Positions 12,917 to 55,314 of a stretch of 64,000 nucleotides of DNA are shown here, piece after piece; position 1 is the stretch's first letter, and each line of letters begins with the position of its first letter. Position numbers and translations under genes: made by a program. This DNA is from Brachycybe producta (lineage: Eukaryota > Arthropoda > Diplopoda > Playtdesmida > Andrognathidae), in contig JAUPFP010000001.1 of the NCBI GenBank assembly GCA_036925085.1, forward strand, positions 18,053,842 to 18,117,841. Direction: 5' to 3'. The notes beneath the pieces were generated by a model, which was not told the DNA's origin, did no database searches, and worked only from the letters and a program-made list of their open reading frames with translations.

Positions 12917-13755
12917 TGTAACGACCCGACTTGGTCGCTACAATACCTACGGCAAATTCGAACCAACTTACCGTCGCTTGACCTCCTTGGGACGGGTCGA
13001 AGCGCTGGCCAGCCCTCCTCTTGTACCCGTCCGTGCCACGGGTAGCGCCGGTTGGAGGTCCTGTCCCTCGCTGCAAGTCGACGGACGAAAGACCGCCGAA
13101 CAAGACGAGGAACCCACGGTAGATCCCCGATGGATCCTACCGCGGAACCGCGCGCGAAGCACCGGCCGACACGCTGGAAAACACGCCGGACACAGGACGG
13201 TGAAGTACCGGTGCACCCCACCGGTAAACCCCCACCCTCCTCGCGGTAACTTCCCCACAATGTATTATTAAAGGACACGGACACAGTGGTTAAGGAGTGA
13301 AAATAAACAATATATATTTATTCAACAAGAATAAATGAACAATAAAACACTCACTGTAAATAGGCAATATCTGCTGGTAAATTCTACCAGCAGAGAGCCA
13401 AAACAAGAGATGCAAATAGATGATAAAAGATGAAACTCCTGGCTAATCCCAGCCAGGAGAAGAGGTTAACAACCTCCACACTCCAAGGAAACAAAGAGAT
13501 GAATGGCGGCCATCTTGGCCACCTGCTGAATGATGAGAGCATACACCTATCCTCACACATCAAGGGTTTCACTTCCACTGTCCAGTATACAATGGCCGCC
13601 GCCATTATATACACCCCCAGGCTGCTCCACCTGGGGGAGGACAGGGACCCTTGCTGGCCATTTTGTCGTCTGCCTGGCACTCAATTTAGCAAGTGCCTAG
13701 CAGACGACATGGGATTTAGTTCTGCACCACAAAGGAGCAGAACTGGGTCGTCACA
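12917..13755 (-). repeat. E1 3' LTR
   Basis: 839 bp, from tgtaacgacccgacttgg to ctgggtcgtcaca. It differs from the other LTR by an extra 3 bp near 13016 and one T/C change near 13072. A minus-strand AATAAA lies at 13317-13322. Confidence 0.92.
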
Positions 13756-13835: not shown

Positions 13836-14425
13836 TCAGACTGATTTCTTCGGTGGTGGATTCATCGGAGCCACCATCCACTCCGACATCCACCGACGTA
13901 TCCACCATGAACACATCCGGGTGTTTCTCCACCCGAGGCCGACATCGAAATCAGTCCCCCTGAGTCTTAACACCTCTTGCTGTCGAAACGCTTCGACGGC
14001 AAGTGTGTCAAGTTGCGGACTCTGACGAAGAGTCCGACTTGTAAGAAGGTCTACGAGGGCGGCCGCGGGATCGGACACGCTACCTCGTAGAGGGTGGGTG
14101 ACAAATTCTCCCACCATTCCTTCCAAGTCGCAGCCAAGGAGACGCTGGACGTATGGGGCCGCGAGCTGGGCTATACGTACGAGCCCAGCTCCTGTCCCCA
14201 CCACGTCTAGAACAGCAAAGCATCTCCTTACCGGGTTGACGACCAGCAACACCGGATAGTCTGTACTGCCAAATGCCAGCACATACCGCATGGCAAATGA
14301 CGGCAACGACGGCGTCCACGGAACTTGGAGTGGCTCTCCCAGACGATAGTATCCGTGGTATTGGTACCCATCCATTCCCGGCTGGTCCTGCCACAGACCA
14401 AGCCGGTTATTCAGAAAGACCTCTC
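13836..14425 (-). other. LNNR-WQ domain of E1 (C-terminus of the tail)
   Basis: About 195 residues. It starts LNNRLGLWQ, has Y and G at fixed positions 19 and 21 and E at 27 counted from the L, then RYVLAFGSTDYPVLLVVNP and a Trp-rich end (GWRNT..CSWW). The same signature occurs in E2, E3 and E4. No known family is recognised. Confidence 0.7.
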
Positions 14426-17400
14426 CTTCTGAATACGGAGGCTCCGCACCAAAGCGTCGACCTTCGCCCTCGGGCTCAGGAGACTTGGCTCTTTCTTCCG
14501 GTCCTAGGGCCACAAAGACCCCATCATCGGGACCCGGAGAGAAGGGTGTCCTTCCTACGGAAGGCACGGGACCACGTTTGGCGGGAACGTCATTTTTCCC
14601 CGCCGGGCTGCCCCCACCGCTAGGTAACGGTGAGCTGACCCGGTGGAGAGTTCCCACCGACCGAACTAACAAGTTTGGTACCGCCACCACCTTCGGGGAG
14701 GATGACGGTATACCGAGAACAACGTCTCGCATTGACCGATCATCCATCCGCGCCGTCCTACTATGAAGGGTATGGTGCGGTTGGCTCCCGGCCGACACGG
14801 CCGCACCGTGTCGGGACTCCTCCTCCTCGGTCCCGATACTTCCACCACCACCAGTCCCCTGGGACACACGGGTGGAAGCTTTCGGACCTCCCTTCTTCTC
14901 ATGATGGGCCTTCTTGCCCTTCTTTTTCTTCTTTTTCTTTTTCTTCTTTTCATGAGAAGAAGGTTCACCGCGCTGTGAGCTGGACGCACCAAGGCTCGCA
15001 GACTTACCAGGCCGGTCAGCCTTAGGAGGGTGGTTAGCCCCCTTCGATTGACCGGACTTACTAGTCGCAGACTTTCTAGCCGAAGCTGTACTAGTCTTTG
15101 AACTAGCTCCCGTAGCCGAACTGACGGTTGAGGACGCTCGTGTCGCCACGAAGCGTCCCTTTCCATCCCGGGGAAGATCTCTCTTCTCCGGGGCAAGGGT
15201 CGGCTGACCCTTGCCACCAACAGGTTTAACTGCCGCACCTTGGTGAGGTGCCTTGGCAGCTTGTATCGCCCCCCTCTGGGCGATACGCTGTTGGCCAGCG
15301 GCCGTGGTGGCACTCGGAATAGGAGTGGCACCAACTCCGACGGGAGGTTCCCCTGTTCTGAGCGGGTTCCTGGCATCAGCGTCCCGCAGGGGCGGAAACT
15401 GAGAGGCCTGGAGCTCAAACTCCCGACGGCGTGCAGCCTTCTTGTCCCGCAGGACAAGGGCAGCACATCTGGCCGCTTGTGCCTGGTGGTACCGCAAGCG
15501 GTCCTCCTGGCTCCACTTTCCTTTGGGAAAGCCGGCCGGACCTCCACGAGAGGTCTTAGCCTTCTTTCCCACCGGATTACTGGCCGAAGGTGGGGTGAAG
15601 GGGCGGGGACGTTTCTGTCCCTGACCACCACCACCACTGGCACGAGTGCTCTTCCTTGGAGCGGGAGGAGAAGGCTGATTGGCCTTCTTTTCCGCTCTTC
15701 GGTCCCTCTTGGGAGTTGCAGACTGCCAGCTTGAACAGCCAGCCTCCGCTTCGGTTGGTCCCGAAACCGGAGGCTGACCCACAGGCCAGGCAGCACCAGC
15801 AGCTCCCTCAGGATGAGCTGGCGACACAGGGAGAAGACCCACTGCCGGCGTAAACTTCGCCAAGGCAGCCTTCGTCCGCTCCAACTGTGCCTCCCTCTTC
15901 GCCAGGGCTTTCATCCTGGCGGTGTACCGAGCAGCTCCGGACTTCTTTTTGGATTTAGAACCGTCCTTACGGAACTGCTGGGTAGGGTACTCCCCAACGA
16001 AGTAGCGTTTCCCATCCGATGCCAGGAAACCACCTGACGCCGATTGGTACTGCGCAGCTTCATCCTGCCTTTCCAGACAGGCCGCTTCCGTCTCCCCAAC
16101 AGGGTCGACCGGAATTGGACTGCCCTTCCGGGCTGGAGTACCCTCCTGGGATCCGGTCACAGACCGTTTACCCAGGGAGCCTGACCCTCTCCCTTCAGAC
16201 TCCGAAGAGTCCTCTGAAGAGAGGATCCGTTGGCCTCGCCACCGCCTGGAGACGGGCACCACATCATTTTCCATGGTGTCCATCTCCGCCTCCGTGTCAA
16301 TGACCAGAGTTCCTCCCAAGGAGGCATCTCTGCTTCCCTCAGCCAGGCTAGCCAATTCTAGCCGGCTTTGGTCCACCGGAGGATCACACTTCGTCAAAGA
16401 GGTAGCTGCCAAACCGGTGACCACCTCCTCGACGGGCGTGCTGGCCCGCACCGGCTCACCAACCGCCGGGATCTCCATGGCTCCCAACTTAATGGTCACC
16501 TTCGGAGAACCCACGGTGGGAGGCGGTGTCAACCGTCCCCAAACAGACCCATAGTATAGAGGGGTCCAAGGGGACGGCTGGGTCACCACAGCATCGTCAA
16601 CCAATAGCAGACCCAAAGGTCCGCCGTCGGCCAAGTCAGCTATGGCCCGACCCAAAGAGTCCGGGGAGCAAGCGCCATCTGACTCCAACAGCTCTGCATC
16701 ACCCGGATGCAAAGAGCTGAGGGAGGAGGAACCGCTGCCACCCCCGCCAGTTTCGTCCTTCTCCGTCGTGGCTACCTGAAAAAGATCAAAAAACATGGTA
16801 AGTATTTGACCTACTACGGTAGGAAACATTTTCCACGGCCCAAAACCGCGAAAAAATGTTTTCCGGCCGGGCAGGCACCGTGGTACACGGCCAAAGCCGT
16901 CCCCAACGGTAATTGCACGGTCGGAACCGGCCAAAAACATTTTTGGTCGGTCCAAATTCCGTAATTTTTCGTTCGGTAACTTGGGCGGTGATTTCCACGG
17001 TAAATCACCGTAGGAAATCCCGTTTCCACCGTGCATATCCCGTGACCCACGGTAAAAACCGTCCTTCACGGGACTCGCACGGTCGGAATCGGCCAAACAG
17101 GTGTTTGGACCGTCCAAACGTGGCACCGATAATTCAGGTTGCTTGGGGCGTGGTTTACACGGACAACTACCGTGCAAAGCCACTTTCCGTCCGTTAGAAC
17201 ACCGTGGATCACGGTCGAAACCATTCTCCACGGTGGTTTCACGGACAGAACCGTGCAAAAACACCTTTTCACCGTCCAAACTCCGTAGAACTTGGTCTCC
17301 ACCAAGTCCCACGGTGTTCTGACGGTAAAACACCGTGTTATGCACGGCCCCATCGGCGGTAGCATCACCGTCAAAATTGTCACGGTGACGCCTCCACCAA

Positions 17401-19721
17401 AACCACGTGTTCAAGCGGTCAATGACCGCTTGACACACCCAAAAGCAATAAAAGAATACTGCCAAAGGGCAGGAAAAGGAAATTCCCCTTTGGGGACTTA
17501 CTGTTTTTCTTGTAGCATCCAACTGGCCTGAGTCTTTGCCGTTCTTTCGGTGAAAACGTTTTTTAGTCAAATTAGCGGCAAACGACCGTCTAAATTTTAA
17601 TTTAAAGGCAAGATGGCATTTAGCCGCTAATTTCACCGGAGGAACGGCTAACAGCGGCGGCTTGGCGGCTAAAACATTATTAGCCGCCTCCATTGCTGTT
17701 ACCATAGAGATTCTACCGTCGTCTGCCTCAATAGGAGCAGATACACGGCCTGAATCTCCATGGAAAGACTCAGGAGAGAGATCTTTAGGAGAAATCACTG
17801 CTGCAGACTCCTCTTCGAGTTTGCAGCTGGGAACTGTGGATTTCTCCACCCAGCTCCCCCTGAACAACCGCCATCTGTCCGCGACAGACAGGCGGCGCCC
17901 AGTCCAGGGGTCGCTGCGCTCCCAATCTTTATTTCCCCAATTCAGGTCCTCATCCCACAACAGAGAATGACCTGCTCTCTCCCACCAGGACAGGGACTTC
18001 CAAAGTCCCTGCACCACCCCGGTGCCTATTGGAGCTCCAGAGGAAGCTTGCATAACCTCAAAGGCCCTGGGTTTCCTCGGACGGAGGTAATACCGGGGCC
18101 GAGGTGCTTCCTCTGCCTCAGAGTCAGTTGACTCCACCACCAAGCTAGGCTGGCCAGAAGGTCCTGGAGAGACATCATCCCTCCTCTCACTTCCAGCTGA
18201 CCCAGACTCAGCGTCACTGGTCCCTTCGGAGTTCGATGAGGTTTCAGAGCCACCTAGGCCATCTTCCTCACGAACCCCACATGTGGGAATGTACGGCTTC
18301 AAGTTATCCACATGAAACCGGTCCCGCACCTTCCGACCATACCCATCTACGAATTCTATCTCGTAGACTAGGTCGGAAACCTGCCGGACCACCGTACCCA
18401 GTTCAGCCTTGTAAGCGAAATTCCACTTCTTGGCTTGACCGAGCTTCCCAGCCATGTCCCTTATCCAGACCTTATTACCAGGCTGGTATCGGGGTGGCTC
18501 CACCCGGCCGGCGTCATACCGACTCTTCTGTCTTCTTTGAGCGGCCGCCAAATTTTGACGAGCACGCTCTTCCACGGCTTGCTGGTCGGGCAAGTCGCGG
18601 ACCGGACCGTTAGGAAGGAGATTGTCAATCCCCAACCTAGGCTCACGACCAAACAACAATTGGTACGGAGACACTTCCGTGCTCTCCTGCACCGCAGTGT
18701 TGTAGGCCCACACGGCGGGCCGCAATTTCTCCCACCAATCACGTTGCTCCTTGAGGGGATCAAGGTAACGCTTGATGGTTTCCATCACGGTCTTGTTCGT
18801 ACGCTCCGTAAGCCCATTAGCTTGCGGATGGTACGCCGTCGTGAAGTGCTGCGCGATATTATAGCGCTCCCGGAACTTTCGCAAAATCCTGCTACAGAAC
18901 TGGGATCCACGATCCGAGATGAGAGTAGTCGGTGTGCCATACACCGACAAGATCTCATCTTTCAGAAACTTGACAACACAAGCGGCCGTAGCCCTTCGTA
19001 CTGCCTTTGCCACGCCGTACCGGGTGAAGTAGTCCACCATAATCAATACATATGTGACTCCACCCACGGACGCGGGAAAAGGCCCAACGAAGTCCATTCC
19101 CCAGGCATGAACCGGGTACTCAGGAACTATGGGTTGCAAGAATCCTTGAGCTCTTGCGAACTGTCGTACTCTCTGACACACTAAGCATGACTTAACATAC
19201 TCCACCGTGTCACGTTTCATTCCTAACCAGTAGAAACGAGTACGCATACGTTGGTAGGTCTTGTACACTCCGAAGTGACCAGCTTCGGAGCTATCGTGCA
19301 ACTTCCGCAAGCAGAAGGCTTGACACGACCTCGGCACAACCAACACAGTTCTAGTGCGATCCTGAATGGATTTGATGGCATACAACAACTTGTCTGCCAC
19401 CACGAACTTGAACCTTAAGTCCGAGTCGGGGTCGGTGGAGAGCTCACGCTTCACCTTGGAGCACCAACTGTCGTTGGCCTGCTCCATTACCCAATCCACC
19501 TCAGACCGGATCCGGTAAATCACCTCACCCACGTCGGCTTCGGCGTGTTCAGGCAAAGAAGGATCAACAACTTCATTCACCGGATACCGACTCAGACAGT
19601 CAGCATCCTCGTGAAGTTTCCCCTTCTTGAACTGAATCTTATACCGGTACTCCTGCAACTGCATTTGCCAACGCCCCAACCTGCCTTGCAGGTTTTTGGC
19701 AGTCTGCAAATGACAGCGCAT
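13836..19721 (-). CDS. pol: E1 integrase fused to long tail ending in LNNR-WQ domain
   Basis: A single open frame of about 1960 codons. The first residues complete RNase H after a frameshift. The integrase has an HHCC zinc module (KLHDSSEAGHFG.., CLVCQ, about residues 140-185) and a catalytic triad in MDFVGP (~208), SDRGSQF (~268) and TERTNK (~304). The second Asp and the Glu are 35 residues apart, as usual for the family. A SPYQLLFG block and an SH3-like KVWIRD..GKLG segment follow. Then come about 1,450 residues with no known enzyme: serine/proline-rich linkers, three degenerate tandem repeats (coded by about 16.8-17.4 kb), a coiled-coil-like ARMKALAKREAQLERTKAAL, a lysine run near 14905-14955, and a C-terminal domain from LNNRLGLWQ (about 14405) to the stop. 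Gypsy Pol normally ends soon after integrase, so this tail is exceptional. Confidence 0.85.
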   Translation of the reverse strand: MRCHLQTAKNLQGRLGRWQMQLQEYRYKIQFKKGKLHEDADCLSRYPVNEVVDPSLPEHAEADVGEVIYRIRSEVDWVMEQANDSWCSKVKRELSTDPDSDLRFKFVVADKLLYAIKSIQDRTRTVLVVPRSCQAFCLRKLHDSSEAGHFGVYKTYQRMRTRFYWLGMKRDTVEYVKSCLVCQRVRQFARAQGFLQPIVPEYPVHAWGMDFVGPFPASVGGVTYVLIMVDYFTRYGVAKAVRRATAACVVKFLKDEILSVYGTPTTLISDRGSQFCSRILRKFRERYNIAQHFTTAYHPQANGLTERTNKTVMETIKRYLDPLKEQRDWWEKLRPAVWAYNTAVQESTEVSPYQLLFGREPRLGIDNLLPNGPVRDLPDQQAVEERARQNLAAAQRRQKSRYDAGRVEPPRYQPGNKVWIRDMAGKLGQAKKWNFAYKAELGTVVRQVSDLVYEIEFVDGYGRKVRDRFHVDNLKPYIPTCGVREEDGLGGSETSSNSEGTSDAESGSAGSERRDDVSPGPSGQPSLVVESTDSEAEEAPRPRYYLRPRKPRAFEVMQASSGAPIGTGVVQGLWKSLSWWERAGHSLLWDEDLNWGNKDWERSDPWTGRRLSVADRWRLFRGSWVEKSTVPSCKLEEESAAVISPKDLSPESFHGDSGRVSAPIEADDGRISMVTAMEAANNVLAAKPPLLAVPPVKLAAKCHLAFKLKFRRSFAANLTKKRFHRKNGKDSGQLDATRKTVSPQRGISFSCPLAVFFYCFWVCQAVIDRLNTWFWWRRHRDNFDGDATADGAVHNTVFYRQNTVGLGGDQVLRSLDGEKVFLHGSVRETTVENGFDRDPRCSNGRKVALHGSCPCKPRPKQPELSVPRLDGPNTCLADSDRASPVKDGFYRGSRDMHGGNGISYGDLPWKSPPKLPNEKLRNLDRPKMFLAGSDRAITVGDGFGRVPRCLPGRKTFFRGFGPWKMFPTVVGQILTMFFDLFQVATTEKDETGGGGSGSSSLSSLHPGDAELLESDGACSPDSLGRAIADLADGGPLGLLLVDDAVVTQPSPWTPLYYGSVWGRLTPPPTVGSPKVTIKLGAMEIPAVGEPVRASTPVEEVVTGLAATSLTKCDPPVDQSRLELASLAEGSRDASLGGTLVIDTEAEMDTMENDVVPVSRRWRGQRILSSEDSSESEGRGSGSLGKRSVTGSQEGTPARKGSPIPVDPVGETEAACLERQDEAAQYQSASGGFLASDGKRYFVGEYPTQQFRKDGSKSKKKSGAARYTARMKALAKREAQLERTKAALAKFTPAVGLLPVSPAHPEGAAGAAWPVGQPPVSGPTEAEAGCSSWQSATPKRDRRAEKKANQPSPPAPRKSTRASGGGGQGQKRPRPFTPPSASNPVGKKAKTSRGGPAGFPKGKWSQEDRLRYHQAQAARCAALVLRDKKAARRREFELQASQFPPLRDADARNPLRTGEPPVGVGATPIPSATTAAGQQRIAQRGAIQAAKAPHQGAAVKPVGGKGQPTLAPEKRDLPRDGKGRFVATRASSTVSSATGASSKTSTASARKSATSKSGQSKGANHPPKADRPGKSASLGASSSQRGEPSSHEKKKKKKKKKKGKKAHHEKKGGPKASTRVSQGTGGGGSIGTEEEESRHGAAVSAGSQPHHTLHSRTARMDDRSMRDVVLGIPSSSPKVVAVPNLLVRSVGTLHRVSSPLPSGGGSPAGKNDVPAKRGPVPSVGRTPFSPGPDDGVFVALGPEERAKSPEPEGEGRRFGAEPPYSEGEVFLNNRLGLWQDQPGMDGYQYHGYYRLGEPLQVPWTPSLPSFAMRYVLAFGSTDYPVLLVVNPVRRCFAVLDVVGTGAGLVRIAQLAAPYVQRLLGCDLEGMVGEFVTHPLRGSVSDPAAALVDLLTSRTLRQSPQLDTLAVEAFRQQEVLRLRGTDFDVGLGWRNTRMCSWWIRRWMSEWMVAPMNPPPKKSV
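16790..17400 (-). repeat. Coding ~80-bp tandem repeats in E1 tail
   Basis: Degenerate units with a ~80-bp period (cacggtcgga.tcggccaaa at 16917 and 17078; related blocks near 16995, 17158 and 17243). They translate as repeated 'LD(G/R)P..(F/C)LA(G/D)SDRA..V.DGF' segments. The ACGG/CCGT-rich wording is the same as that of the non-coding leader array at 24340-25130. Confidence 0.6.
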
Positions 19722-22428
19722 GGTGATCTGTTACGATCACAAAGTCCCGGTTAAAGATGTAAGGTCGGAATTTACCCACGGCAAACATGATCGCCAAGCA
19801 TTCCTGCTCGGTGACACTATACCGTGTTTCCGGTCCCTTCATGAGACGGCTAGCGTAGGCCAGAACCCGAGGAGCCTTGTCCTCAGGTAGCTTCTGGTAT
19901 ACTACGACACCTAGACTGTACCCACTAGCATCGGTGTGAATTAACACCTCACCACGTGGATCATACATGGTGAGCACCGGTGCTTCGGTTAAAAATGCCT
20001 TTAACCGTTCGAAAGCTAGACCACACTGTTCCGACCAGTCAAAGGACGCATCCTTCCTGGTCAGATCATGCAGTGGTCTTGCGATCTTGGCGAAGTCCTT
20101 AATGAACCTACGGTAGTAGCCGGCCAGTCCAAAAAAACTTCGGACGGCGGTCACCGTTGTAGGGACATTGAACTCTTCGACTGCTCTTACGAGTCCCGGG
20201 TCCGGAGCAACTCCCTCGGCACTCACAATGTGACCGAGATATTTGACTTTGTCAAAACCGAAGAAACATTTCTTCGGCTGGAGTTTCAGCTCCGCCCCTC
20301 GTAACAGTCTCAGGACAGTACTCAAGCGTTCGAGAAACTGCTCAAAGGTGCTCCCAAAAACGATAATATCGTCTAGGTACACCAAGCAGCTCTCCCACTT
20401 GTGTCCCGCCAGCAAGAGGTCTAACGCTCTTTGCATAGTGGCAGGAGCATTGCAGAGTCCGAAAGGCATTTTTCGGAACTCAAACAGACCTTGAGAGCAA
20501 ATGAATGCTGTCTTCTCAATGTCTTGCTCCGCCATCCTGACCTGCCAGTAACCACTAGCAAGGTCTAGAGTTGCGAAATACTTCGCTCCAGCAAGTGAAT
20601 CGAGGGCATCATCGATGCGAGGTAACGGGTACTGATCCGCCTTAGTTTGGGCATTCAGTCGCCGATAGTCCACACAAAAACGGAAGCCACCATCCTTCTT
20701 GCGAACAAGCAAGATAGGGCTCGCGTAGGGACTATGCGAAGGTTGGATTACCCCTGCATCCAACATCTTCGCTACCTCTTCTCTCTCGATTGCACGAGCC
20801 GCCGGAGCGGTTCTTCGCAATCCTTCACGCACAGGAGGTAACCCACCGGTATCAATAGTGTGTTCGACGAGCGGGGTTTCCCCCAGCTCTGTATAATCGA
20901 ACGCAAAATGATCACGGCGTTCTAGCAGGAACTCCCGAAGCTGTGCCGCCTCATAAGGCTTCAGACTAGGTCCGATTTTAAGGCACTCTTCGAGAGTGGG
21001 CTTGACTTCCGCATTGAGGATCCGGCGACCTTTCTTGGTTGCCCCTCTCAACTTAGGCGGAAGCCCCCCTGGTCGACCATCTCCATGAGTGGGGTCTCCC
21101 CCTCTCAACTTAGATGGACCGTCCAGTCCCACCACTAGGGCTGCCTCCACAGCTTGAGCTGTCGCCACACCCTCCCCTGTTTCCAGGGCAATGGGTACGT
21201 CGGCAACATTCTCGAGCCAAATGTCGTAAGAGCCTTCTTCTGTGGCTTCGGCAATTCCTGCCACCGCCAACAGACCACGGCCACCCAAGGCTTTACGATG
21301 GGGCTCAACGAGAAGCAGCTGTCCAGGGCCAGCATGCTCTATCAAGCTCACGGAAACTACCTTCCGCTCATGAGCTGATAACCATACGTTCTGCAACAGT
21401 CGCAGGGAACAAACTTCCCCGCTTCTAATTGGAGAACTGGTCTCGGCAAGCGTAGGTGACACAATGTCAACCCACCCATCCACCTTTTCAGGCTCTGCAG
21501 GCATACCTTCCGGGAACCCGAAAGGAGGAAGTAGCACCGGCTCCACAGAATCGTGAAGCCTCGCCAACGCCTCCAATACGGAGCTCGGAAGTTGTACCGA
21601 AGTACCCTGCGCAGCCTGGATGGCCAGTGCGGCATGAAGATCATCTGGATGTGCATTCCAGATGTCTTCCCGGAAATAAACTTTCCGGCTCACGACGTCC
21701 AACATTAACCCAAACCGGGAAGCCAGGTCAACACCTATTACGGCTTCCCCTTCACCCTCAATGAGGAGAAGATGGGTACGTATGGACCGTCCGTGGATTG
21801 ACATGTCCACGTACATGACTCCTTCTATCTGGATGGAGTACCCGCTCATGCCCGTAAGGAATGAGGGGAGGCTAACCTCCTGCACCGGTAACTCCATCTC
21901 CCGTGCCACCGACATGCTCATTACCGATACTTCGGCACCGGTGTCGACGATCGACTCAACCAGCCGACCATCCATCGACACCAGAACACGCGGTGCCCCA
22001 CGCAAGTAAGCACGGCTCTGTAATTCCGGAATGGGCAACCGTCGTTGCCCGACATTACTTCTCTGAGCCTCATCCGGTCGTACCGGATGCTCAGGGGCCT
22101 GGCTTCCAGTCTCCACTCCAGGAGACCCACCAGGCCTGGGCGACAGCATGGGCGCACCAATGCTCGAAGCCCTCGTAATGCCCGTACCATTCGGACCTTC
22201 CTCCCCCTCATCAGGGAAGAAAGGTGCCACCCAGCTCTCCAGCCGGGCAAGCGCAGCTTCCAGTGTGGGGCTTGGCTCCTGAAATACCCACTGGGTAATT
22301 TCTGGGTCCGCAGACCTAGCCAGAGGCACCCCTGCGTCATGCAGGATACCCACATATCTGGAGACTGCCCGAAGGTACGCTCCTTCTTTACTTCGCCGGC
22401 TTTGCCGGACACCTGAGTTTTGTAGCAT
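19639..22428 (-). pseudogene. pol: E1 Pol: protease, reverse transcriptase, RNase H (frameshifted)
   Basis: An aspartic protease with IVDTGAEVSVMS (residues 161-172) is followed by a ~250-residue linker, then RT with FCVDYRRLNAQTK, TLDLASGYWQ, FGLCNAPATMQR, VYLDDIIVFG (catalytic YLDD near residue 681, 20361-20384) and YLGHIVSAEG. RNase H follows with HTDASGYSLG (~829), TEQECLAI (~871) and VTDHHAL (~899). Immediately after VTDHHAL the frame is lost (SFADCQKPAR..) relative to E3. Sequence comparison shows 4 nt fewer at about 19705-19715, and the remainder continues in the 19721 frame. The start is taken at 22428, 18 nt past the gag stop and in another frame, so expression would need frameshifting or reinitiation. 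Confidence 0.85.
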
Positions 22429-22445
22429 TACCGGTCGACTGCAGC

Positions 22446-23909
22446 TCAGTTCTGCAGGGACCGGCGCCGGTTTAACGAGGGCGGGCCCTCGTTTCTGGCA
22501 ACAGGTAGATAGAACATCTGTCCATCAATGACGGTGGACAGATACTCCCGGCCCTGCAGTACCACGGGTGCTAGACCCGGCAGGTACTGCACCACTGGGC
22601 TTTCGCCCGGTGGTACTCGAGCAACCTGTCCTTGGGCAACAGCCCTCGGACAGTCCTTCCTAAGGTGACCCATTTGGTTACACCGAAAGCATGGACCTGG
22701 TTGCCTACGAGTAGGACCTCCACCTCCAGCCGTTTGGCTGGAACCTGACGGGGCTGCTGTGGACTTATTTCCACCCTGGCTCTGCCGCTTCGTCCTTCTT
22801 CCCTTCTGCCCTCCGGTCTTGGCAGTAGCTCCGTCCGATTTGGACGGTGCCGCTGCCTTCCCACCCGAAGAGGTAGAAGTAGACGTAGCAGAGCCCTTGG
22901 GCTTTGCCACAGCACCAGAGACCTTGGCCGCAGCCTGGGTCCCTGGTACCGTCAAGGTACGGGCAGGTAACGCTCCCGCTGTAAGCATGTCGGCCTCGAC
23001 CAACATTGCCTCGGTGGTAAAGTCCCTGACCGTCTCAGCTTTCGATCCCCAGAGAGGTCTGAGAATCTCCGGCTGCAGTTTCTTCTTATACCGGAGGAGT
23101 CGACAAGACTCATCCTCACCAGGAGAAACTCGTTCTGCCAGCTCAACAAAGCGCCAGTAGAACGCCTGGAGTGATTCCGCAGGCCCTTGCTTCATGGCCT
23201 CGAAACGGTCAAAACAGGCCTGAGCCTGATTCTTCGTCCCAAAGCGGTGAAGCATAGCCTGCCTCAACTCCGGCCAGGTCAGGTTCGGCTTGAACTTCAC
23301 CAAACAGGCGTAATGTTCCTCAGCCGGACCATCGAGCAGGTACGTAAAGAAACTGCACCTGGCCTCATCCGTCCAGCGCTGAGCCCGAGCTTTGGCTTCG
23401 AACTGCCGGAGAAAAGGCGTAATGTCCTCTCGTCCATCATACCGGATGAACGAGTGAACTGGGTTAAAGAACCCAAACGCCTGGATCTCCGACGGGACAG
23501 CCGGTGCAGGCGTCCACGGCGCGGTACTTACCCGCCGTGGTGCCCTGCTCCGGTTCCCCGAAGTCTCAGCATCGGGTTCAGCATCCTCGGGTTCCACCAA
23601 GTGGACCCGTGGTCGCTGAACGGGCGGAGGAACTCCCCGACCGCCTCCCATAGGAGCGGTCCGAGTTCCTCCACCTGGAGGCACCCGCCTGGCCGGAGCC
23701 GGCGGCACCTCCCTACCTGCACCTTCCCGGTGCACGGGCGACGGTGTGAACCGAGGTTGCGACCGATGGAGCCGCCCGATCCCTGGGGAAAGATGACCCT
23801 GCAATCGCAGTTCATCAATCCCCCTGGCAACCTCACGGCGCTCCTCCTCAGTCATCGACGCCAACCATGACGTCGTGTTCACTGAGGGTGGCCCCGGGGT
23901 CCCTACCAC
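22446..23909 (-). CDS. gag: E1 Gag (487 aa)
   Basis: A proline/arginine-rich N-terminal third is followed by a Gypsy-type capsid region (FIRYDGREDITPFLRQFEAK, then EHYACLVKFKP, FGTKNQAQACFDRF and ESLQAFYWRF; about residues 155-300). A basic serine-rich linker leads to one CCHC zinc knuckle (CFRCNQMGHLRKDC, about residue 405). Gag forms the particle and binds the RNA. It is intact from ATG to stop. The capsid is recognisably related to the gags of E2 and E4. An upstream ORF (24325-23918) lies just before it in another frame. Confidence 0.85.
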   Translation of the reverse strand: MVGTPGPPSVNTTSWLASMTEEERREVARGIDELRLQGHLSPGIGRLHRSQPRFTPSPVHREGAGREVPPAPARRVPPGGGTRTAPMGGGRGVPPPVQRPRVHLVEPEDAEPDAETSGNRSRAPRRVSTAPWTPAPAVPSEIQAFGFFNPVHSFIRYDGREDITPFLRQFEAKARAQRWTDEARCSFFTYLLDGPAEEHYACLVKFKPNLTWPELRQAMLHRFGTKNQAQACFDRFEAMKQGPAESLQAFYWRFVELAERVSPGEDESCRLLRYKKKLQPEILRPLWGSKAETVRDFTTEAMLVEADMLTAGALPARTLTVPGTQAAAKVSGAVAKPKGSATSTSTSSGGKAAAPSKSDGATAKTGGQKGRRTKRQSQGGNKSTAAPSGSSQTAGGGGPTRRQPGPCFRCNQMGHLRKDCPRAVAQGQVARVPPGESPVVQYLPGLAPVVLQGREYLSTVIDGQMFYLPVARNEGPPSLNRRRSLQN

Positions 23910-23917
23910 CTCTCCGG

Positions 23918-24325
23918 CTAAGGGATTACCCCCCGTCCAACCGGACGGGAGGCGGTGGAGGTTAACAGGCCGGCCATGGGCCGTACGCCTGTCCCAGTTG
24001 GGGTCGGTGACCCTCCATCACCACCATCTCCCGGTGCTCCACCGGAGGCAGTGTCCCGACGGTGCGTCCGCACCGTCACAAAGCCTCCAGCCGGAGGTTG
24101 GTCCGTAGGTTCAACCTCTACGACACCTTCCTCCGTGGAATCACCGGGCGCGTTCCCGCCAACAGCACCCTCAACAGGGTGCCGCCCCTCCGGCCGCCTA
24201 CCGCGGCCGATAGTGCGGGAACGCAACTCCAATCCTTCCAACAAACTGCTTCCCCGACCAGACATCGGGAAAACAGGGTCTTGGCCGATTTCGTCCGTGC
24301 GAACACGGGCAAAACTGGCCACCAC
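23918..24325 (-). CDS. E1 leader ORF (135 aa)
   Basis: Open from ATG to a TAG nine bases before the gag start, in a different frame. It is rich in Gly, Arg, Pro and Glu (SGRGSSLLEG, VEVEPTDQPP). It could be a short upstream ORF, the original N-terminus of Gag separated by a frameshift, or chance openness in GC-rich DNA. No homology is recognised. Confidence 0.3.
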   Translation of the reverse strand: MVASFARVRTDEIGQDPVFPMSGRGSSLLEGLELRSRTIGRGRRPEGRHPVEGAVGGNAPGDSTEEGVVEVEPTDQPPAGGFVTVRTHRRDTASGGAPGDGGDGGSPTPTGTGVRPMAGLLTSTASRPVGRGVIP

Positions 24326-24339
24326 TTGTTAGAAGAAAC

Positions 24340-25187: not shown

Positions 25188-26023
25188 TGTAACGACCCGA
25201 CTTGGTCGCTACAATACCTACGGCAAATTCGAACCAACTTACCGTCGCTTGACCTCCTTGGGACGGGTCGAAGCGCTGGCCAGCCCTCTTGTACCCGTCC
25301 GTGCCACGGGTAGCGCCGGTTGGAGGTCCTGTCCCTCGCCGCAAGTCGACGGACGAAAGACCGCCGAACAAGACGAGGAACCCACGGTAGATCCCCGATG
25401 GATCCTACCGCGGAACCGCGCGCGAAGCACCGGCCGACACGCTGGAAAACACGCCGGACACAGGACGGTGAAGTACCGGTGCACCCCACCGGTAAACCCC
25501 CACCCTCCTCGCGGTAACTTCCCCACAATGTATTATTAAAGGACACGGACACAGTGGTTAAGGAGTGAAAATAAACAATATATATTTATTCAACAAGAAT
25601 AAATGAACAATAAAACACTCACTGTAAATAGGCAATATCTGCTGGTAAATTCTACCAGCAGAGAGCCAAAACAAGAGATGCAAATAGATGATAAAAGATG
25701 AAACTCCTGGCTAATCCCAGCCAGGAGAAGAGGTTAACAACCTCCACACTCCAAGGAAACAAAGAGATGAATGGCGGCCATCTTGGCCACCTGCTGAATG
25801 ATGAGAGCATACACCTATCCTCACACATCAAGGGTTTCACTTCCACTGTCCAGTATACAATGGCCGCCGCCATTATATACACCCCCAGGCTGCTCCACCT
25901 GGGGGAGGACAGGGACCCTTGCTGGCCATTTTGTCGTCTGCCTGGCACTCAATTTAGCAAGTGCCTAGCAGACGACATGGGATTTAGTTCTGCACCACAA
26001 AGGAGCAGAACTGGGTCGTCACA
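25188..26023 (-). repeat. E1 5' LTR
   Basis: 836 bp, nearly identical to the 3' LTR. On the minus strand it has a TATATAA at 25873-25879 and an AATAAA at 25585-25590, a plausible U3/R promoter and poly(A) signal order. Confidence 0.92.
25873..25879 (-). promoter_or_regulatory. TATA-like box in E1 5' LTR
   Basis: Minus-strand TATATAA about 145 bp inside the LTR and about 280 bp before the poly(A) signal, which fits an LTR promoter. Confidence 0.4.
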
Positions 26024-30839: not shown

Positions 30840-31525
30840 TGTGAGCTTTTGACATCAACCAATATTTTATTACCAACCTTTAGATGACATTTTCTACTTT
30901 TCGTTTCTTCTCTGAGCAGTATGACACCTGCACAGAGAAGATCCGAGCTGTAGAGAGAGCTGGATGGAGATAGATTGTAGTCACTCTTCTGCATGGGGGT
31001 GAAATCGATGCAGGAGAGTGGCGGCCATCTCTCTCTCTTCCGGTTGATGCTGATATACATCTTCTCCATCGGTATTCCGACTAGAGAAGATGTTGTAGCT
31101 GCTGAGAATCGTATAGCTCCTGCCCTATGAAACCTCCGGCCTCTGAAGAGAAGTTATTTACATAAACATAGAGACAACGCTACTTCTTGTTACAACACTT
31201 TTATTCATTCCTTGTAAGAAGTACAGATACAAGGGTGAATAGTAATATACTAACTGGAAATCCTCAGGCCCATGATTTGGAATGTATCGCAAAAACAGGC
31301 AAAGGAAAGAACTACTGAACAAAGAGGAACATGGTCCTTTTATACCTTGGACCTGTGTACACCTGCGAGGTGTAACCAGGTCCAAGTGACCATGGTCCTT
31401 TATGTATCAATCCGCCGCTTGTGCATGAGTCAGAAAGGTGAGTCAGAGAGGAGGGAGGGACGGTTGAGAGTTGTTTACCCCCCAGGCTATGGTTTTGGCG
31501 GGATCACGATTTACAGGGTGTTACA
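30840..31525 (-). repeat. E2 3' LTR
   Basis: 686 bp, TGTGAGCTTTTGACATCAAC to TTTACAGGGTGTTACA. A minus-strand AATAAA lies at 31200-31205. Confidence 0.9.
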
Positions 31526-32054: not shown

Positions 32055-34094
32055 CTATAAGATGGCGATTCGGTAACGAGGATCCGGTTCCGGAATGTAG
32101 TGACGACTGGTGCGGAACGTCTGTCCAGCTGGCAGTCCAAAGACGGAGTTGACGAAAGCTCCCAAAAGGGCTTCCGTGGCTTCATCGATGGCATCTCCGG
32201 CGAAACTGATGGTTTCAACAATCCGTCTTCTTGGGAAGACGATGGTGACGAGGACACTTGTTAGGCGGGAGAGTCCCACGACATATCGCTCCCGGGGAGG
32301 GAGGTCCAGACGGGGGAACCCTTCCTCCAAAGAGAAGTGTCCTACGTAAAGGGTGTTGGCAGAGCGCACTTCGCGCTGCCAAGTGACCCACCGATTGTTG
32401 AGCAACCTCTCGCCGGAGGTGGCTGCACGGAACGGATGATCCAGCGGTAACCGCCCCAGAGTAGCCCCGGCATGGGGTACAGTGGGCGGTGCGGCTGGTC
32501 GGGCTGGTGTTGGAGCCGCAGGTTCCAGAGAAACTGATGCGCCCACGATAGGCCTGGCATGGCGCAAGGCGGACCGGGCCATATCGCGGGCCCGCTGACG
32601 TAGTCGCTTCGATGCTGACTTCCTGCTCAGCGCCTCCAGTGGCTTGGCACTTCCTGGTGCACGGCCCAGTGCTTCCATGGGGTCGCCTCCCTGTTGCATG
32701 ACGTCTTGCAGAAGGTTTGTGATGGCCTTCTGTTTTTTCAAGAACGCGGCACGCTCGGCGGAAGGTGGCGGCATCAAAGGTGTAGGCGCAGGTCGTCCAG
32801 AAGGGTGGCCCGGAGGTGGCGGAGGAGGAGAGCGATGCGGGACCCGATTAGGTGGGCCCCGAGTTTCATAGCGATGGTCGCGGTCCAGTCGGACTCGGTG
32901 ATCCTGTAGATCTTGCCTGACCCTTGGGTCGAAGTTATTACGCGGCGGGAGGCCGCGTCCAGAGGAACCACGTTGTTCCTGCTGACTTCTTCCGTCGGGT
33001 CGGCGTCGGGGCGAAAGATGGGAACCACGTGGCGAAGAGCGACGTGGCTGTGGCCGTTGAAGAGAGTCTCGAGAAGAGTGGTGGCCCCTGTAGGACTGTT
33101 GAGGCTCCTTGGGGCGAGCCCCAGTGGAAACCTGAACACGAACAGGTTGGGGGACCACCACTATGGAAGGTAACTTTGGAGTCGGAGTTGGTGTGGCGGC
33201 CTCGCTGCGTGGAGGCGTGGCACATCGGGAGGTTGGTGGTGACGATAATGGTGTATGAGGAGGAGGCGGCGGAGTGATTGACGGCACCGGTGAGCAGTGT
33301 TGGAAAGGCTCTGGTGGCGTTATGGGTGGAGAAGGAGATGTGGAGAGGCCAGTTGTCAGGGTTGCTGGCGAGTCGGAGGATGGAGATGATGACGTAGCTG
33401 ACGACGTAACTCGGGCGGCTTCTTGGAGTCGGGCCTCGATTCGCAGGAGCTCCTCCTTCGGGAGTCGCGCCGTACACGGTAAGCCCAGCTCGACAAGGCG
33501 GGCGCAAACCGCACGGAGGTACGCCAGATTGTCCTCCCCTTCCTTCTTATCTCTGGCTGCCCGACGAAGAGCAGCCTCCTTCTGCAGCTCCAAGTGGAGG
33601 TCTTCGAGGGGGGAGGGCACAGATCCACCTCCCCCACGCTTCCCTCTTGCTTCAGCTCCACCCGGAATGGGTTGACCAGGCGCGATGCTATCGCGGAACG
33701 CCTGGTTAACCCCCCATGCCATGATGTTGATATCGATGCGGTCTTCCCGCTCCTCCCAGTAGTGTTTTGATGTCGTGACGTCGAAGGGGACGATGCTGCT
33801 TGGAGCAGCAGGCTTCCCTTCGCGCCCGACATTGGCAGGTCGCTTGAAGCTTGCTTTTAGGCGCTTCTCCCCACGCCGGTGAAAATTCTCCGGTTCGGAG
33901 GAGGTGCGGCGCCTATCTATTATGTTTGGCGACTCTCTTCTTGTTGTGGGCGCACTGGCGGCGCCCGCCTTTTGTAGCTGGCAGGTAGATTGAGAGAGGG
34001 GTTCAGCGGTCCCCGCCGTTCCACTCTCCGTCTCATCTTCACTAGAAGAGGCAGACATCATTCTGCCTCCTCTCCATGAGCCTCTACCTGGCAT
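32055..34094 (-). CDS. E2 ORF3: accessory protein with LNNR-WQ domain (679 aa)
   Basis: Intact from ATG to stop. The N-terminal ~90 residues are acidic/basic and disordered. A conserved segment at about 110-160 holds EDRIDINIMAWG, FRDSIAPGQPIPGGAEAR, followed by a charged coiled-coil-like stretch (KEAALRRAARDKK). The middle ~250 residues are Pro/Ser/Arg-rich. The C-terminal ~120 residues form the LNNR-WQ domain: LNNRWVTWQ (about 32370-32400), Y and G at fixed spacing, RYVVGLSRLTSVLVTIVFP, ending FVNSVFGLP. There is no signal peptide or membrane segment, so it is not envelope-like. The N-terminal segment is shared with E4, the C-terminal domain with E1, E3 and E4. Function unknown. Confidence 0.75.
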   Translation of the reverse strand: MPGRGSWRGGRMMSASSSEDETESGTAGTAEPLSQSTCQLQKAGAASAPTTRRESPNIIDRRRTSSEPENFHRRGEKRLKASFKRPANVGREGKPAAPSSIVPFDVTTSKHYWEEREDRIDINIMAWGVNQAFRDSIAPGQPIPGGAEARGKRGGGGSVPSPLEDLHLELQKEAALRRAARDKKEGEDNLAYLRAVCARLVELGLPCTARLPKEELLRIEARLQEAARVTSSATSSSPSSDSPATLTTGLSTSPSPPITPPEPFQHCSPVPSITPPPPPHTPLSSPPTSRCATPPRSEAATPTPTPKLPSIVVVPQPVRVQVSTGARPKEPQQSYRGHHSSRDSLQRPQPRRSSPRGSHLSPRRRPDGRSQQEQRGSSGRGLPPRNNFDPRVRQDLQDHRVRLDRDHRYETRGPPNRVPHRSPPPPPPGHPSGRPAPTPLMPPPSAERAAFLKKQKAITNLLQDVMQQGGDPMEALGRAPGSAKPLEALSRKSASKRLRQRARDMARSALRHARPIVGASVSLEPAAPTPARPAAPPTVPHAGATLGRLPLDHPFRAATSGERLLNNRWVTWQREVRSANTLYVGHFSLEEGFPRLDLPPRERYVVGLSRLTSVLVTIVFPRRRIVETISFAGDAIDEATEALLGAFVNSVFGLPAGQTFRTSRHYIPEPDPRYRIAIL

Positions 34095-35595
34095 ATTTTC
34101 TTAAGAGTTTAAAAGTTCTTACTTTTTCAAAAGTCCCGCTGCTGGTGGTTACTTCCAAATAATAACAGAAATCGGTCCCCGATCACTCTGTTATTATTTC
34201 AAGAGGTCCAAAGAGTTCTGAAGGCCTGATGCACTGCACGTGAGTTCAAAGGCTTGAAGGTGGCACTCAAGCTTTTGATTAACAACAAAAACTGATGAAG
34301 TCCGAAATTAGAATTTGGAACTTGGCACAAAAAGGACTTGAAGATTTGAAGAATCGAAGGTGAATATAATTGAGATGACAGGATGAATAAAACGAGTGCT
34401 TCTTTGAAGAGAGCAAATCGAGTGGTAATTGACCAAGTTTTGGTCACTTTTCTTTTTTTTTAATTTTAAAAGTTAGAAGGGCCGGCCCCTTTTAGAATAA
34501 GACACCTTACTCTAATTGGTTTCTTCACGACTTTATTTATTGGGGGTGGGGGTTGTCCCACCGACATTAGATGTGAGAGGTGTTGATCTAATTCTTATCA
34601 GAGTCCGTCCTGTTTATTATTTTTAGATAAACAAAAGGACTAAGGAATCTCGAGGGAGAAGGGCCGTTATTTTATTTCACACCGAGGTGTGAAGTTGCCC
34701 ATTAACTTTCTCCCCTTCTTTCCCTTAATGCCTTTTTTTGGAAAGAATAGGTCAGCAAGGTTACTAATGTACCTTGCTGTTTGTTATTATTTTTAGGGGG
34801 GAGTGGGACAGGAGTTGGTGTCCCACAATTCGATCTTAATTGAGAGGGTGACAGGTTCTTCAATTTTATTTTTTAATTGAAGGTGTCCGCTCTCACAAAA
34901 TCTTCAAAACTGATTTTCTTCCTTTTTTATTTGTTTATGGCCAGCAGTTTTTGTTGTTTGTTTTTTTTTCTTTGAAGTCCCAGTGCATTGGTCTGGCCCC
35001 CAGAGCAATTGTCTCTTTGAAGTTTCTATCCTTCTACTGTCAACAGCATGGTCAATGACGTCCGTCCATAATAAAGGGGAGCACGGTGTTTTTCTTTTGC
35101 TGACCCTTTTATGGCTCTTGATTTTTCTTCTGAACGTCCTTGACTGGCCTTCGGCGTTTTTCCCAGGTGTACCACGTGGTTGACAGTTGTTTGTGAAGGC
35201 CACGTGGTTCCGGTGTAGTTTATTGCATGTTTGAAATGGTTGCCAATATGTAAATATTGGTGGCCATTTTGAAAAGTTTAGAAGTGTTTCAAAAAATTAA
35301 AGTTGTGTGAATTTTGTAGAGTTTTGGGAGTTATTTGAGAGTGTTTAGAGGGGTTGTTGATGCTGTGGGGTTGTTTATTCGTTGGGGGTTCCTTTTATCC
35401 CCTCCCCCACCTCTTGACAACTGTCCTCAGTTGTTTCTCAACACAACATCTCAAATTCCTCCCGCTCTTTTATTGTTGATATTTGATGGTTGCTGGTGTT
35501 TATTTCCATAGTCATGAAATAAACACTGGTGAATTATTGTTTTATTTTCGTCGCGTTTGGTTTCTTGACAGCGTGGGTGGCCGTTGCTTTCGTCG
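34095..35595 (-). other. E2 non-coding spacer in place of RT/integrase
   Basis: About 1.5 kb between gag-protease and ORF3, lower in GC than the flanking ORFs and with no long open frame on the minus strand. In an autonomous Gypsy element this position holds reverse transcriptase, RNase H and integrase. I see no residual motif of these, so it is a replacement or a heavily decayed remainder. Confidence 0.6.
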
Positions 35596-37977: not shown

Positions 37978-39960
37978 GATTAATGATGTGGCTTGTGTAA
38001 TGTGAATGTGCGGTGATGAACGAGTCCGGCGAAGTCCAAGTCGTTGTGTGCAGCTCCGAGGGTTCTCGAGTACACTCTGAGCTATACTTTCGGGTTCCAG
38101 TATGATGGGACTCGTTCAGTTCGTGAAGTTGTAGGTCGGTGATGTCACTGTGCGTTGGTAATTTAGTGCTTGTCAGCAACCGACACTATCGTACTCTTAT
38201 ACACTGAGTAACGATAGATTACCTAAGCTTGTGACGTGTATAACGAAGTGGCCGTTCACTCCGTTAGTGTGGTGATGGTTGTATCGTATTGATCGTGTCC
38301 TCAGTTGGGCGTGTGACGAGTTTTGGTTCCCAACTGGTGTAGCATCGTGAGTTCTCTATTGAGTGTCAGATTTTAGAAGGATCTCTCTCGACACGTGGTA
38401 TTTGGCGACCACGTGGAGGTTGCGAGAATTCCAAAAAGCCTCAATAGAGAAACAGCAGATGTACAATACAATCCCGAGCGTGGTACACCACCCAATCAAG
38501 ATTGCACTGCGGAAAGTGAATTAGAAATGAAAGTGTATTGCAGTTGCCTGACGAAGAGGCAAGCAATGAAGAGTAAAGCTAGAGCGCGGTGCCCGCACTT
38601 TTAGTTTTACTTGGAAACAAGAATGAAGAGTGTGTGTGTAAAGAACACACAAAGAGCAAAAAGTTCAAGATGGCTGAACTTTTTAAATGCACAAACAAAG
38701 GAGAAGTTCAAGATGGCTGAACTCTCCAAAGAAGCAAGAAAAGAAAGCTGTTTTACTTGAAAAGTTTAAAACTTAGGTGCGGTGCCCGCACATCAAAAGT
38801 TTTAATTTAGTTTTATTAAAAAAAGTAAAACAGTGTAGAAATTGAAGTGTGTTCAACAAGCTAAATGCTTGGTGAACCAGAAGAAATGTTCAGACTGTAG
38901 AAATTTTGAGTCCTCACTGCTGGATGGCTCTGGATGAAAAAGACAGAGTCAGTGCCCAGTGAGGGACTATGTTGAGTAGAATGAAGAAGTCCGTAGGTGG
39001 CGCTGTGGTGGCCACTTCCGGTCAGTTTATTGCAATGTCCAAAAATTGATGATTGAAAAGTTCCTCCGGGGCACGTTTTTATGGTGGCCAGGAGAAAGAC
39101 ACAAACAGAGAGAAAATTCAAAGGAAAAGAGAAGTTTTCTCTAACAAGAGGAACTCCGCCAGGGGGCGCGTGAGTGCAACCCTCTGGAAGAGAAGAGAAG
39201 AGAAGATAACACAAAAAGATGAGAGAAGGTACAACAATGAGTCACATGGAGCGAAAAACCGCTCCGTTGGCGCTTTTTGAAGAGTGTCCGGTCGATCCAA
39301 GATGGCGGCCGGGCTTCGGTGCTGTCCAATGGAGAAAGTTCATGTGATGATGCATTGAGGTGATGATGATGAAGAAATTGAAGAACATGACTTGGGACAT
39401 AGAGGGTCCCAAGGGAAACACAAGTGTAAAAACAAAGAACAAAGGAAAAGGGGGGACAAGAAAGTCCCACGTGGCTAGGAAAAGTGTGTTTTAAGCTTGT
39501 AAGCCCCCTAACAATGAAATAGAGTTAGGAAGAATCTTGCTTGAAAATTAAAGATGAAGAGTGAAGATAATAGGACATTTTAAAAGACACACACGTCATT
39601 TAAAAGCCTATTAATAGGTGGATAGATTAGTAGATGAGATTTGTTTGCTCATCTCATAATGAGACTGCAAACTCCTCTCGGAGAGTAAGAAGAATTTGTT
39701 TAAAGTGTTGCCCACGGAGTGTGGGTTTCACTTTGAAAATTAAAGAAGAACAAAGGTGAAAGTGGGTGATGATAATGGAAACATAAAATACAAAAACACG
39801 GACGGAAACACATGTGTCAAAGAACTACTACCAAGGTGTTGCCCACGTGCTTGATGGATGTCGATGCAGCAGTTCCTTTAACATGTGTCTCTAAGGACAG
39901 GACACAGAATCGCGCGGTCGACACGTGGTGTGTGTAGCCACAAGTCTCTTTCGCGATTCC
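37978..39960 (-). other. E2 5' leader, unique part
   Basis: About 2 kb before gag. It contains short AG-rich runs (gagaagagaagag near 39187), two copies of gttcaagatggctgaact (38664 and 38705) and no convincing ORF. Probably untranslated leader. Confidence 0.45.
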
Positions 39961-40434: not shown

Positions 40435-40639
40435 TGTGAGCTTTTGACATCAACCAATATTTTATTACCAACCTTTAGATGACATTTTCTACTTTTCGTT
40501 TCTTCTCTGAGCAGTATGACACCTGCACAGAGAAGATCCGAGCTGTAGAGAGAGCTGGATGGAGATAGATTGTAGTCACTCTTCTGCATGGGGGTGAAAT
40601 CGATGCAGGAGAGTGGCGGCCATCTCTCTCTCTTCCGGT
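40435..40639 (-). repeat. E2 5' LTR, left piece
   Basis: First 205 bp of the right-hand LTR, up to the CGGT target duplication of E3. Identical in layout to 30840-31044. Confidence 0.9.
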
Positions 40640-41448: not shown

Positions 41449-41831
41449 GCTGGGCAATTTTGGGCGTTAATATCGCCGCACGCTTCGGCTTGATGGTGGA
41501 TATCGTGCACCGGAAAGTGTATTTCCGGGAGGATGTCTGGACCGCACATCCAGACGCCCTTCAAGCCGCTTACACTGATCGAGCGCTTGGGAAACCTGTG
41601 GAGGTGGAAGTTGCTCCACCGCCGATACCAGAGGCTCGGCCTCAGGGACGGCAACTCCCAGACATCCCACGGGCGCTTGAGAAGGTTGATGGGTGGGTGA
41701 ACCTTGTTTCACCGGAGCTGTGCGAGACCAGTGTTCCTATTGGGAGCGGGGAAGTGTGTTCCCTGCGACTGAGGGAAAATGTCTGGCTACCACCCCACGT
41801 ACGACGTGTCGTATATCGGTGGGATTGGTAG
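41449..41831 (+). pseudogene. pol: E3 protease C-terminal fragment
   Basis: Starts at ILGVNIAARFGLMVDIVHRK, which corresponds to VIGVDLASRFGLML in E1, that is, after the DTG active site. It continues through the linker (KVDGWVNLVSPELCETS) to VWLPPHVRRVV, where a small indel near 41815 puts the rest (GLVEHAGPGQLLL) in another frame and this frame stops at 41831. Confidence 0.8.
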
Positions 41832-47797: not shown

Positions 47798-47813
47798 GGG
47801 AAGTTGAGAGGAT
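47798..47813 (+). promoter_or_regulatory. E3 polypurine tract
   Basis: GGGAAGTTGAGAGGAT directly before the 3' LTR. Confidence 0.7.
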
Positions 47814-55303: not shown

Positions 55304-55314
55304 CTCCCCCAACT
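55304..55314 (-). promoter_or_regulatory. E4 polypurine tract
   Basis: Minus strand agttgggggag next to the 3' LTR. Confidence 0.5.

Follow-up and report, generated by a model that had tools for sequence, protein, structure and literature searches.

A 64,000-nucleotide stretch of DNA from the diplopod Brachycybe producta (contig JAUPFP010000001.1 of assembly GCA_036925085.1, forward-strand positions 18,053,842 to 18,117,841; hereafter the window) contains four long terminal repeat (LTR) elements, E1 to E4, all of which encode a domain named here the LNNR domain after its motif. The domain is real, selected and abundant, and it marks a Ty3/gypsy lineage with an accessory domain in its Pol protein. 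Its identity as a non-catalytic relative of Ulp1 (pseudo-Ulp1) is provisional. It is a compact domain situated at the extreme end of an unusually long Pol, and a long, partly basic and less conserved linker leads to it.

A conserved domain at the end of an extended Pol

The motif LNNR-x3-WQ-x9-Y-x-G-x3-[LM]-x-E was found in E1, E2, E3 and E4 alike, gapless over 27 residues. A first-pass annotation of the window had claimed such a signature in four LTR elements; it is present in all of them, a few bases away from the starts given there. When 29-residue cores are compared, 10 residues are common to both pairs of elements, with 25 shared within E1/E3 and 17 within E2/E4. Scored without gaps under BLOSUM62 against the E2 tail, the E1 and E3 cores reach 38 and 42, compared with maxima of 21 and 26 among 500 shuffles each. 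The four motif sites are also the top four among all six-frame 29-mers of the window. The sharing of the motif is, therefore, above chance. The flanks had been described as hardly alignable, which holds between the pairs only; within E1/E3, the domain-adjacent linkers are 49-54% identical over aligned codons.

Alignment A5 brings together 15 members, some taken from the window and the others from elsewhere in the genome. Its 12 genome rows (L069, L070, L072-L074, L076-L078, L083, L085, L087 and L088) belong to 20 fetched regions picked for diversity, mostly with long open frames; the rest (L071, L075, L079, L080, L081, L082, L084 and L086) are incomplete or near-duplicate and stand outside it. 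As the open frames given for L080 and L084 extend across N, their lengths are disregarded. Fifteen residues are invariant over the 15 members, in E1 domain numbering E7, L10, N11, N12, R13, W17, Q18, Y28, G30, L34, E36, P47, P70, A85 and A128. The domain is common to at least two clades.

E1 (12917-26023, minus strand) carries Gag, protease, reverse transcriptase (RT), RNase H and integrase (IN), followed by a long tail. This tail has no stop in 1483 codons, while the other five frames have 28 to 81 stops, and the chance of such a stop-free run by base composition alone is about 7e-26. The basic linker before the domain (E1 residues 1248-1763) has an isoelectric point (pI) of 11.0. In the window copy, the frame changes within RNase H, so that Pol falls into two open reading frames (ORFs). 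The LTR pair of E1 differs by 1 mismatch in 836 positions and 3 gap columns. Target duplications of 4 bp were read in the flanks of three elements: TTAA (E1), CGGT (E3) and AGCC (E2).

Selection on the domain

Between E1 and E3, the ratio of non-synonymous to synonymous substitution rates (dN/dS) is 0.31 for the domain (bootstrap 0.18-0.46), compared with 0.11 (0.07-0.16) for the integrase, 0.63 (0.46-0.87) for the domain-adjacent linker, and 1.11 and 1.33 for the two other reading frames of the domain. For E2 and E4, it is 0.22 over 46 codons (0.11-0.57; 791 of 1000 resamples with finite dS). Eight of the 105 pairs in A5 have a dS between 0.05 and 1.5, and their ratios range from 0.07 to 0.35 with a median of 0.28; six of these usable pairs involve just four rows of the E1/E3 clade, and long open frames had been the ground for picking most rows. 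The corresponding polymorphism ratio within families (pN/pS) is 0.08 for 30 E1 copies and 0.11 for 30 E2 copies, values that are biased low because the loci are the best-scoring proteins and that are not used as support. The domain is under protein-level purifying selection. The first-pass annotation had regarded it as selected, and ratios lying well below 1, rather than near it, bear this out.

Abundance and architecture in the host genome

The assembly (295.3 Mb, 442 contigs) was searched with the domains of E1, E3 and E2 and with a 38-residue piece of E4. A first look gave 1443, 1429, 1138 and 750 candidates, respectively; these are not proven copies, and 150 per query were scored, all 150 of which matched. 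The domain is abundant in the host genome. For the E1 query, 16 of the 150 scored relatives lie in open frames of 2870-2901 amino acids (aa), a length that would fit one continuous ORF running from protease through RT, RNase H, integrase and tail to the domain. About 105 of the 150 scored rows for the E2 query lie in frames of 700-754 aa (149 values tallied).

The stretches upstream of three subfamilies show how the domain is connected. In L092, which precedes L073, a single frame (2168 aa within the stretch) runs from protease through RT, RNase H and integrase into the tail and the opening residues of the domain. L094, which precedes L075, is ordered alike from protease to tail, and the domain of L075 itself is shortened. 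In L093, before L074, Gag, protease and tail share an open frame of 1912 aa that reaches the end nearest the L074 domain; no RT or integrase match was found in it. Gag, protease, tail and domain are, in this subfamily, fused in a single open frame (L093:1-5736 with L074:341-871), and the L074 frame length of 2082 aa recurs in two further copies. Upstream stretches of E2 type carry Gag-protease, a spacer and the tail (L089 and L090), or an LTR and a leader, after which some 40 residues from the beginning of Gag precede the start of the tail ORF (L091). The tail has a second conserved block, at residues ~67-221 of the E2 tail ORF (window 33438-33902), which recurs in E4, L092, L093 and L094 and has no significant Pfam match.

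In the window, E2 spans 30840-49095 on the minus strand and is interrupted by E3, inserted in its 5' LTR. No match to the RT or integrase of E1/E3 was found within E2. Its LTR pair, compared in two pieces that overlap, shows 0 mismatches in 207 bp and 1 in 485 bp. The stop that shortens its domain is absent at that place from the other 29 fetched E2-type loci; being peculiar to the window copy among 30 loci, it was rejected as the natural end of the family. E3 (~40640-48610, plus strand) retains RT, integrase, tail and domain, has no Gag match and is nearly devoid of protease; its LTRs differ by 1 mismatch in 798. E2 and L093, without an RT or integrase match, and E3, without Gag, are non-autonomous derivatives. 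Two subfamilies lacking RT and integrase thus retain the LNNR domain, E2 as a separate ORF and L093/L074 in frame behind Gag-protease. E4 (54600-63470, minus strand) is a relative of E2 that still has an integrase fragment. With 34 mismatches between its LTRs in 474 aligned positions, and with a domain interrupted by one stop and apparent frameshifts, it is an old, decayed copy.

A search with the RT listed frog proteins high, and other relatives came from a spider, ticks, a pseudoscorpion and a sea cucumber. Three of the four frog entries examined hold two RT stretches, or more chimeric pieces, and because of this chimerism the search does not place the lineage.

Searches for relatives and the predicted fold

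The first-pass annotation had called the domain undescribed and had known of no family with this signature. Pfam gave no match for E1, E3 or E2, and the best E value over the 15 members was 0.16; single-member matches at 0.16 and 0.23 were judged to be chance. Among PDB sequences, none matched E1 and profile matches had E values of 0.72 or worse; those to TopBP1 (0.72-1.3) and DNA polymerase I (1.4) were likewise judged to be chance. In the protein database, where candidates were limited by shared words and length, 1478 were scored for the E1 region and 7999 for an alignment (A1), none of them at E <= 10. Nothing was found with the E1 domain in genome-contig and viral-contig collections, nor with the E1 integrase or A5 in the viral contigs, and Rfam gave no match. 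In the openly accessible literature (Repbase and Dfam lay outside this scope), no LTR element with such a domain or with a non-catalytic Ulp1 relative was recognised. The domain is, therefore, uncatalogued in the libraries searched and missed by Pfam-based annotation. The word 'undescribed' is softened here all the same, as the predicted models suggest a fold class that is already known, that of Ulp1 and other CE-clan peptidases, without the catalytic residues.

Two low-confidence AlphaFold models were obtained, and the structural matches listed for them are almost only of the CE clan (Ulp1/SENP/adenain), an idea that had already been noted before modelling. The second model was made without E1/E3 letters; the alignment of the first also held E2/E4 rows, so both share these. 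The predicted order of strands and helix is that of CE-clan peptidases, and the LNNR domain is predicted, at somewhat better than even odds, to have a CE-clan (Ulp1/SENP/adenain-like) fold. A further likeness lies in the catalytic spacing. In Ulp1 and SENP2, the His and Asp are 17 positions apart (HW...DS), and E1 Y62 to D79 aligns with this spacing without a gap. The score was reached by 3 of 1000 shuffles for E1 and E3 jointly, by 9 for E1 alone and by 53 for E3 alone.

Several results weigh against this fold. The N-terminal LNNR part of the models lies mostly below 50 in the predicted local distance difference test (pLDDT), and the best E2 window for the HW...DS comparison falls elsewhere. 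No signal of the Ulp1-type Q...DC helix was seen in the sequence, and none of the 15 members matches PF02902, the Pfam family for C48. HHalign against Ulp1/SENP was no better than shuffles apart from a weak exception in the E1 clade, where the predicted strands were picked and the score was reached by 7 of 150 shuffles. Since profile-profile comparison gives no support, the claim of a CE fold stands on the agreement of two weak models, and both fold and function are provisional, as the sequence-profile tests do not support homology to Ulp1.

The catalytic residues themselves are missing. At the catalytic His position of A5, the 15 rows show Y, I, F, A, V, T, K or S, and none of them has a His less than 4 columns away. 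At the Cys position, the residues are P, F, H, L or Y and never Cys; L087 has one Cys four columns before the site, and E2 has none in 125 residues. An Asp follows the second strand in 4 of the 15 rows, all from the E1/E3 clade. Given a CE fold, the domain should, therefore, not cut in the manner of Ulp1/SENP.

The host genome has 12 matches to PF02902, of which five stretches were examined; none of the 12 falls at an LNNR locus in the lists of up to 150 per query. One of them, L095:981-4127, is, by reading alone, an ORF of 1049 aa resembling a Mutator-like element (MULE), in which the Ulp1-type catalytic set is intact and the C-terminus is PHD-like. A second place in the genome has the same PF02902 score and length as this ORF, and another stretch, also labelled by reading alone, is a NEDP1/SENP8-like gene.

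Proposed function and alternative explanations

It is proposed, tentatively and at slightly less than even confidence, that the domain is a non-catalytic, Ulp1-like binding module that works with the element's own particle. The surface of Ulp1/SENP holds SUMO-type modifiers. Should the CE fold be correct, the most economical function would be to dock to a ubiquitin-like modifier, since the loss of catalysis leaves the modifier-holding surface. The module would stay with the particle or ribonucleoprotein of the element and dock onto SUMO or NEDD8, or onto a modified host or Gag protein; this docking might help the particle to assemble, reach the nucleus or escape restriction. Elements without RT and integrase would use enzymes made by their relatives. 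As these elements keep a frame of their own under selection, the product would act preferentially on the RNA, particle or element encoding it; the evidence suggests such a preference for the encoding element. The Gag-protease-tail fusion of L093/L074 would put the domain into the particle. In its fullest and rather doubtful form, the proposal is that, in an entire Ty3/gypsy lineage, the fold of a SUMO protease has become a docking domain that no longer catalyses and instead marks or protects the element's own particle, a cis-acting 'passport' kept by high-copy derivatives lacking RT and integrase and fused, once, as Gag-protease-pseudoprotease.

The first-pass annotation had suggested an accessory role for the domain, for example in target choice. 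The accessory domain of the lineage stands; target choice and other roles bound purely to integrase are weakened because subfamilies without RT and integrase keep the domain. For the same reason, a target-choice module that would hold the integration complex at a chromatin mark, placed like the chromodomain of chromoviruses, is improbable, although the position at the Pol C-terminus beyond integrase in E1, E3 and L092/L073 and the basic linker would suit it. Moreover, neither a chromodomain nor any other significant Pfam match was found for E1, E3, E2 or the 15 members. A structurally novel accessory domain outside the CE clan, acting in particle assembly or RNA handling with Gag, has a minor but real chance of being correct; the CE likeness would then be an artefact of low-confidence models. 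The lack of a significant Pfam or PDB sequence relative, the failure of the Ulp1 profile tests for the larger clade and the association of the domain with Gag-protease in elements lacking RT and integrase agree with it, but two models with different query sequences list almost only CE-clan matches, and the idea preceded the modelling.

The loss of catalytic residues in all 15 aligned members, along with the intact Ulp1-type set read in the MULE-like ORF of the same genome, would also be expected if an active-type Ulp1 protease had been captured, had simply decayed and were now without function. This is very improbable in view of the low dN/dS between subfamilies, the invariant residues and the many copies with long open frames. 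An RNA signal within the domain region could account for its retention, but not for the low dN/dS. An envelope (ORF3) remnant is scarcely credible. The region does lie between integrase and the 3' LTR, the usual envelope site, and the tails have hydrophobic 19-mers (residues 752-770 of the E1 IN-tail ORF and 793-811 of that of E3), but these lie outside the domain at differing places, E2 has none, and the L092 frame is continuous with Pol. A hydropathy scan of the domain itself found no strong window in E2 and, in E1/E3, only predicted core strands and one E3 helix, with no transmembrane-like anchor beyond the predicted core. The earlier statement that the domain is not an envelope, thus, agrees with the scan.

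Comparison with known systems

The lineage shares with Ty3/gypsy elements (Metaviridae) a Gag with CCHC knuckle, aspartic protease, RT, RNase H, an integrase with H2C2 and rve parts, LTRs and 4-bp target duplications. E1 follows the order Gag, protease, RT, RNase H, integrase between its LTRs, and L092 and L094 follow it from protease to integrase. It differs in the ~1480 residues that E1 carries after integrase, ending in a domain for which no catalogued relative was found. With CE-clan peptidases such as Ulp1/SENP (C48), NEDP1, adenain and poxvirus I7L, the domain shares the predicted order of strands and helices and the top structural matches of the models; unlike them, it has neither catalytic His and Cys nor a Pfam C48 match, and its profile likeness is a weak E1-clade signal. 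TR-GAG and other plant Gag-only LTR elements are non-autonomous, keep Gag and lack RT and integrase. E2 and L093/L074 are alike in having Gag without RT and integrase, and differ in that an extra domain is also kept, separate or fused to Gag-protease.

The nearest architecture is that of Ginger1, described by Bao and Jurka (2010, PMC2836005) as a DNA transposon in which a Ulp1 or OTU domain lies C-terminal to a Gypsy-type integrase. The likeness of the LNNR domain is one of predicted fold; in that description, Ginger1 has terminal inverted repeats and its Ulp1 is presented as a protease, whereas here there are LTRs and RT, and the catalytic residues are missing. LTR elements of bdelloid rotifers are reported to have captured an ORF3 (GDSL esterase, DEDDy exonuclease) with invariant residues intact (PMC5408684); they are alike in extra coding capacity downstream of pol, but the domains are others. 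Gypsy_Ds1 of the ostracod Darwinula stevensoni is described with an atypical 250-aa extension beyond integrase, no homologues at first search and coiled-coil similarity (PMC7998251); compared by description rather than by sequence, it is alike in its post-integrase extension and differs in the coiled-coil similarity. Retand elements, some of which are non-autonomous, are described with antisense TRP28 ORFs and with a long region from pol to the 3' LTR that includes a conserved domain of unknown function (PMC11963269). That ORF is antisense and found in plants, while the present one lies on the sense strand and, in L092, continues the Pol frame. In yeast, the tethering of Ulp1 to nuclear pores is reported to restrict Ty1 transcription (PMC8585004).

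Features of the window

The coordinates of the four elements are collected in Table 1. The 3' LTR of E4 contains about nine copies of a 29-bp unit (54844-55109), and the leader of E2 has a 60/117-bp tandem array (39973-40323). A lone LTR at 1484-2269 is ~70% identical to the E3 LTR. An inverted repeat resembling a miniature inverted-repeat transposable element lies at 50448-51235, with 91-nt arms that are 90% complementary and 606 nt apart. An ORF of endonuclease-reverse-transcriptase type (PF14529) at 10415-11647 is probably a fragment of a long interspersed nuclear element.

Table 1. Coding and terminal-repeat features of elements E1 to E4 (window positions)
Feature	Position	Strand
E1 3' LTR	12917..13755	-
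E1 LNNR domain, 201 aa, C-terminus of IN-tail ORF	13836..14441	-
E1 LNNR...WQ...YxG...LxE motif, 27 residues	14334..14414	-
E1 motif, L of LNNR	14414	-
E1 IN-tail ORF: RNase H end, integrase (H2C2, rve), ~1480-aa tail with domain at end	13836..19730	-
E1 protease-RT-RNase H ORF	19639..22524	-
E1 Gag with CCHC knuckle	22446..24017	-
E1 5' LTR	25188..26023	-
E2 3' LTR	30840..31525	-
E2 LNNR domain, shortened by stop in window copy	32055..32432	-
E2 motif, L of LNNR	32402	-
E2 separate tail ORF, 681 aa, with domain	32055..34100	-
E2 Gag-protease ORF	35596..38115	-
E2 5' LTR, one half, edge uncertain by 2 bases (E3 interrupts)	40435..40641	-
E2 5' LTR, other half	48611..49095	-
E3 5' LTR	40639..41436	+
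E3 RT-RNase H ORF, frame changes on both sides	41690..43777	+
E3 integrase-tail-domain ORF, 1362 aa	43648..47736	+
E3 LNNR domain	47125..47736	+
E3 motif, L of LNNR	47152	+
E3 3' LTR	47813..48610	+
E4 3' LTR with 29-bp tandem array	54600..55304	-
E4 LNNR domain, second open piece	56321..56425	-
E4 LNNR domain, first open piece	56429..56542	-
E4 motif, L of LNNR	56509	-
E4 integrase fragment, two pieces, 40 and 43% identical to E1	58921..59396	-
E4 Gag fragment, 38% identical to E2	59810..60355	-
E4 5' LTR	62992..63470	-

Significance

Even if the predicted fold is wrong, the LNNR domain represents a large uncatalogued domain family. The subfamilies without RT and integrase amount to a natural deletion experiment on the parts that selection retains, and what a non-autonomous element must encode becomes testable through them. 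If the pseudoprotease reading is true, a retroelement lineage would encode a reader of its own for the ubiquitin-like modifier system, which is known to control LTR elements.
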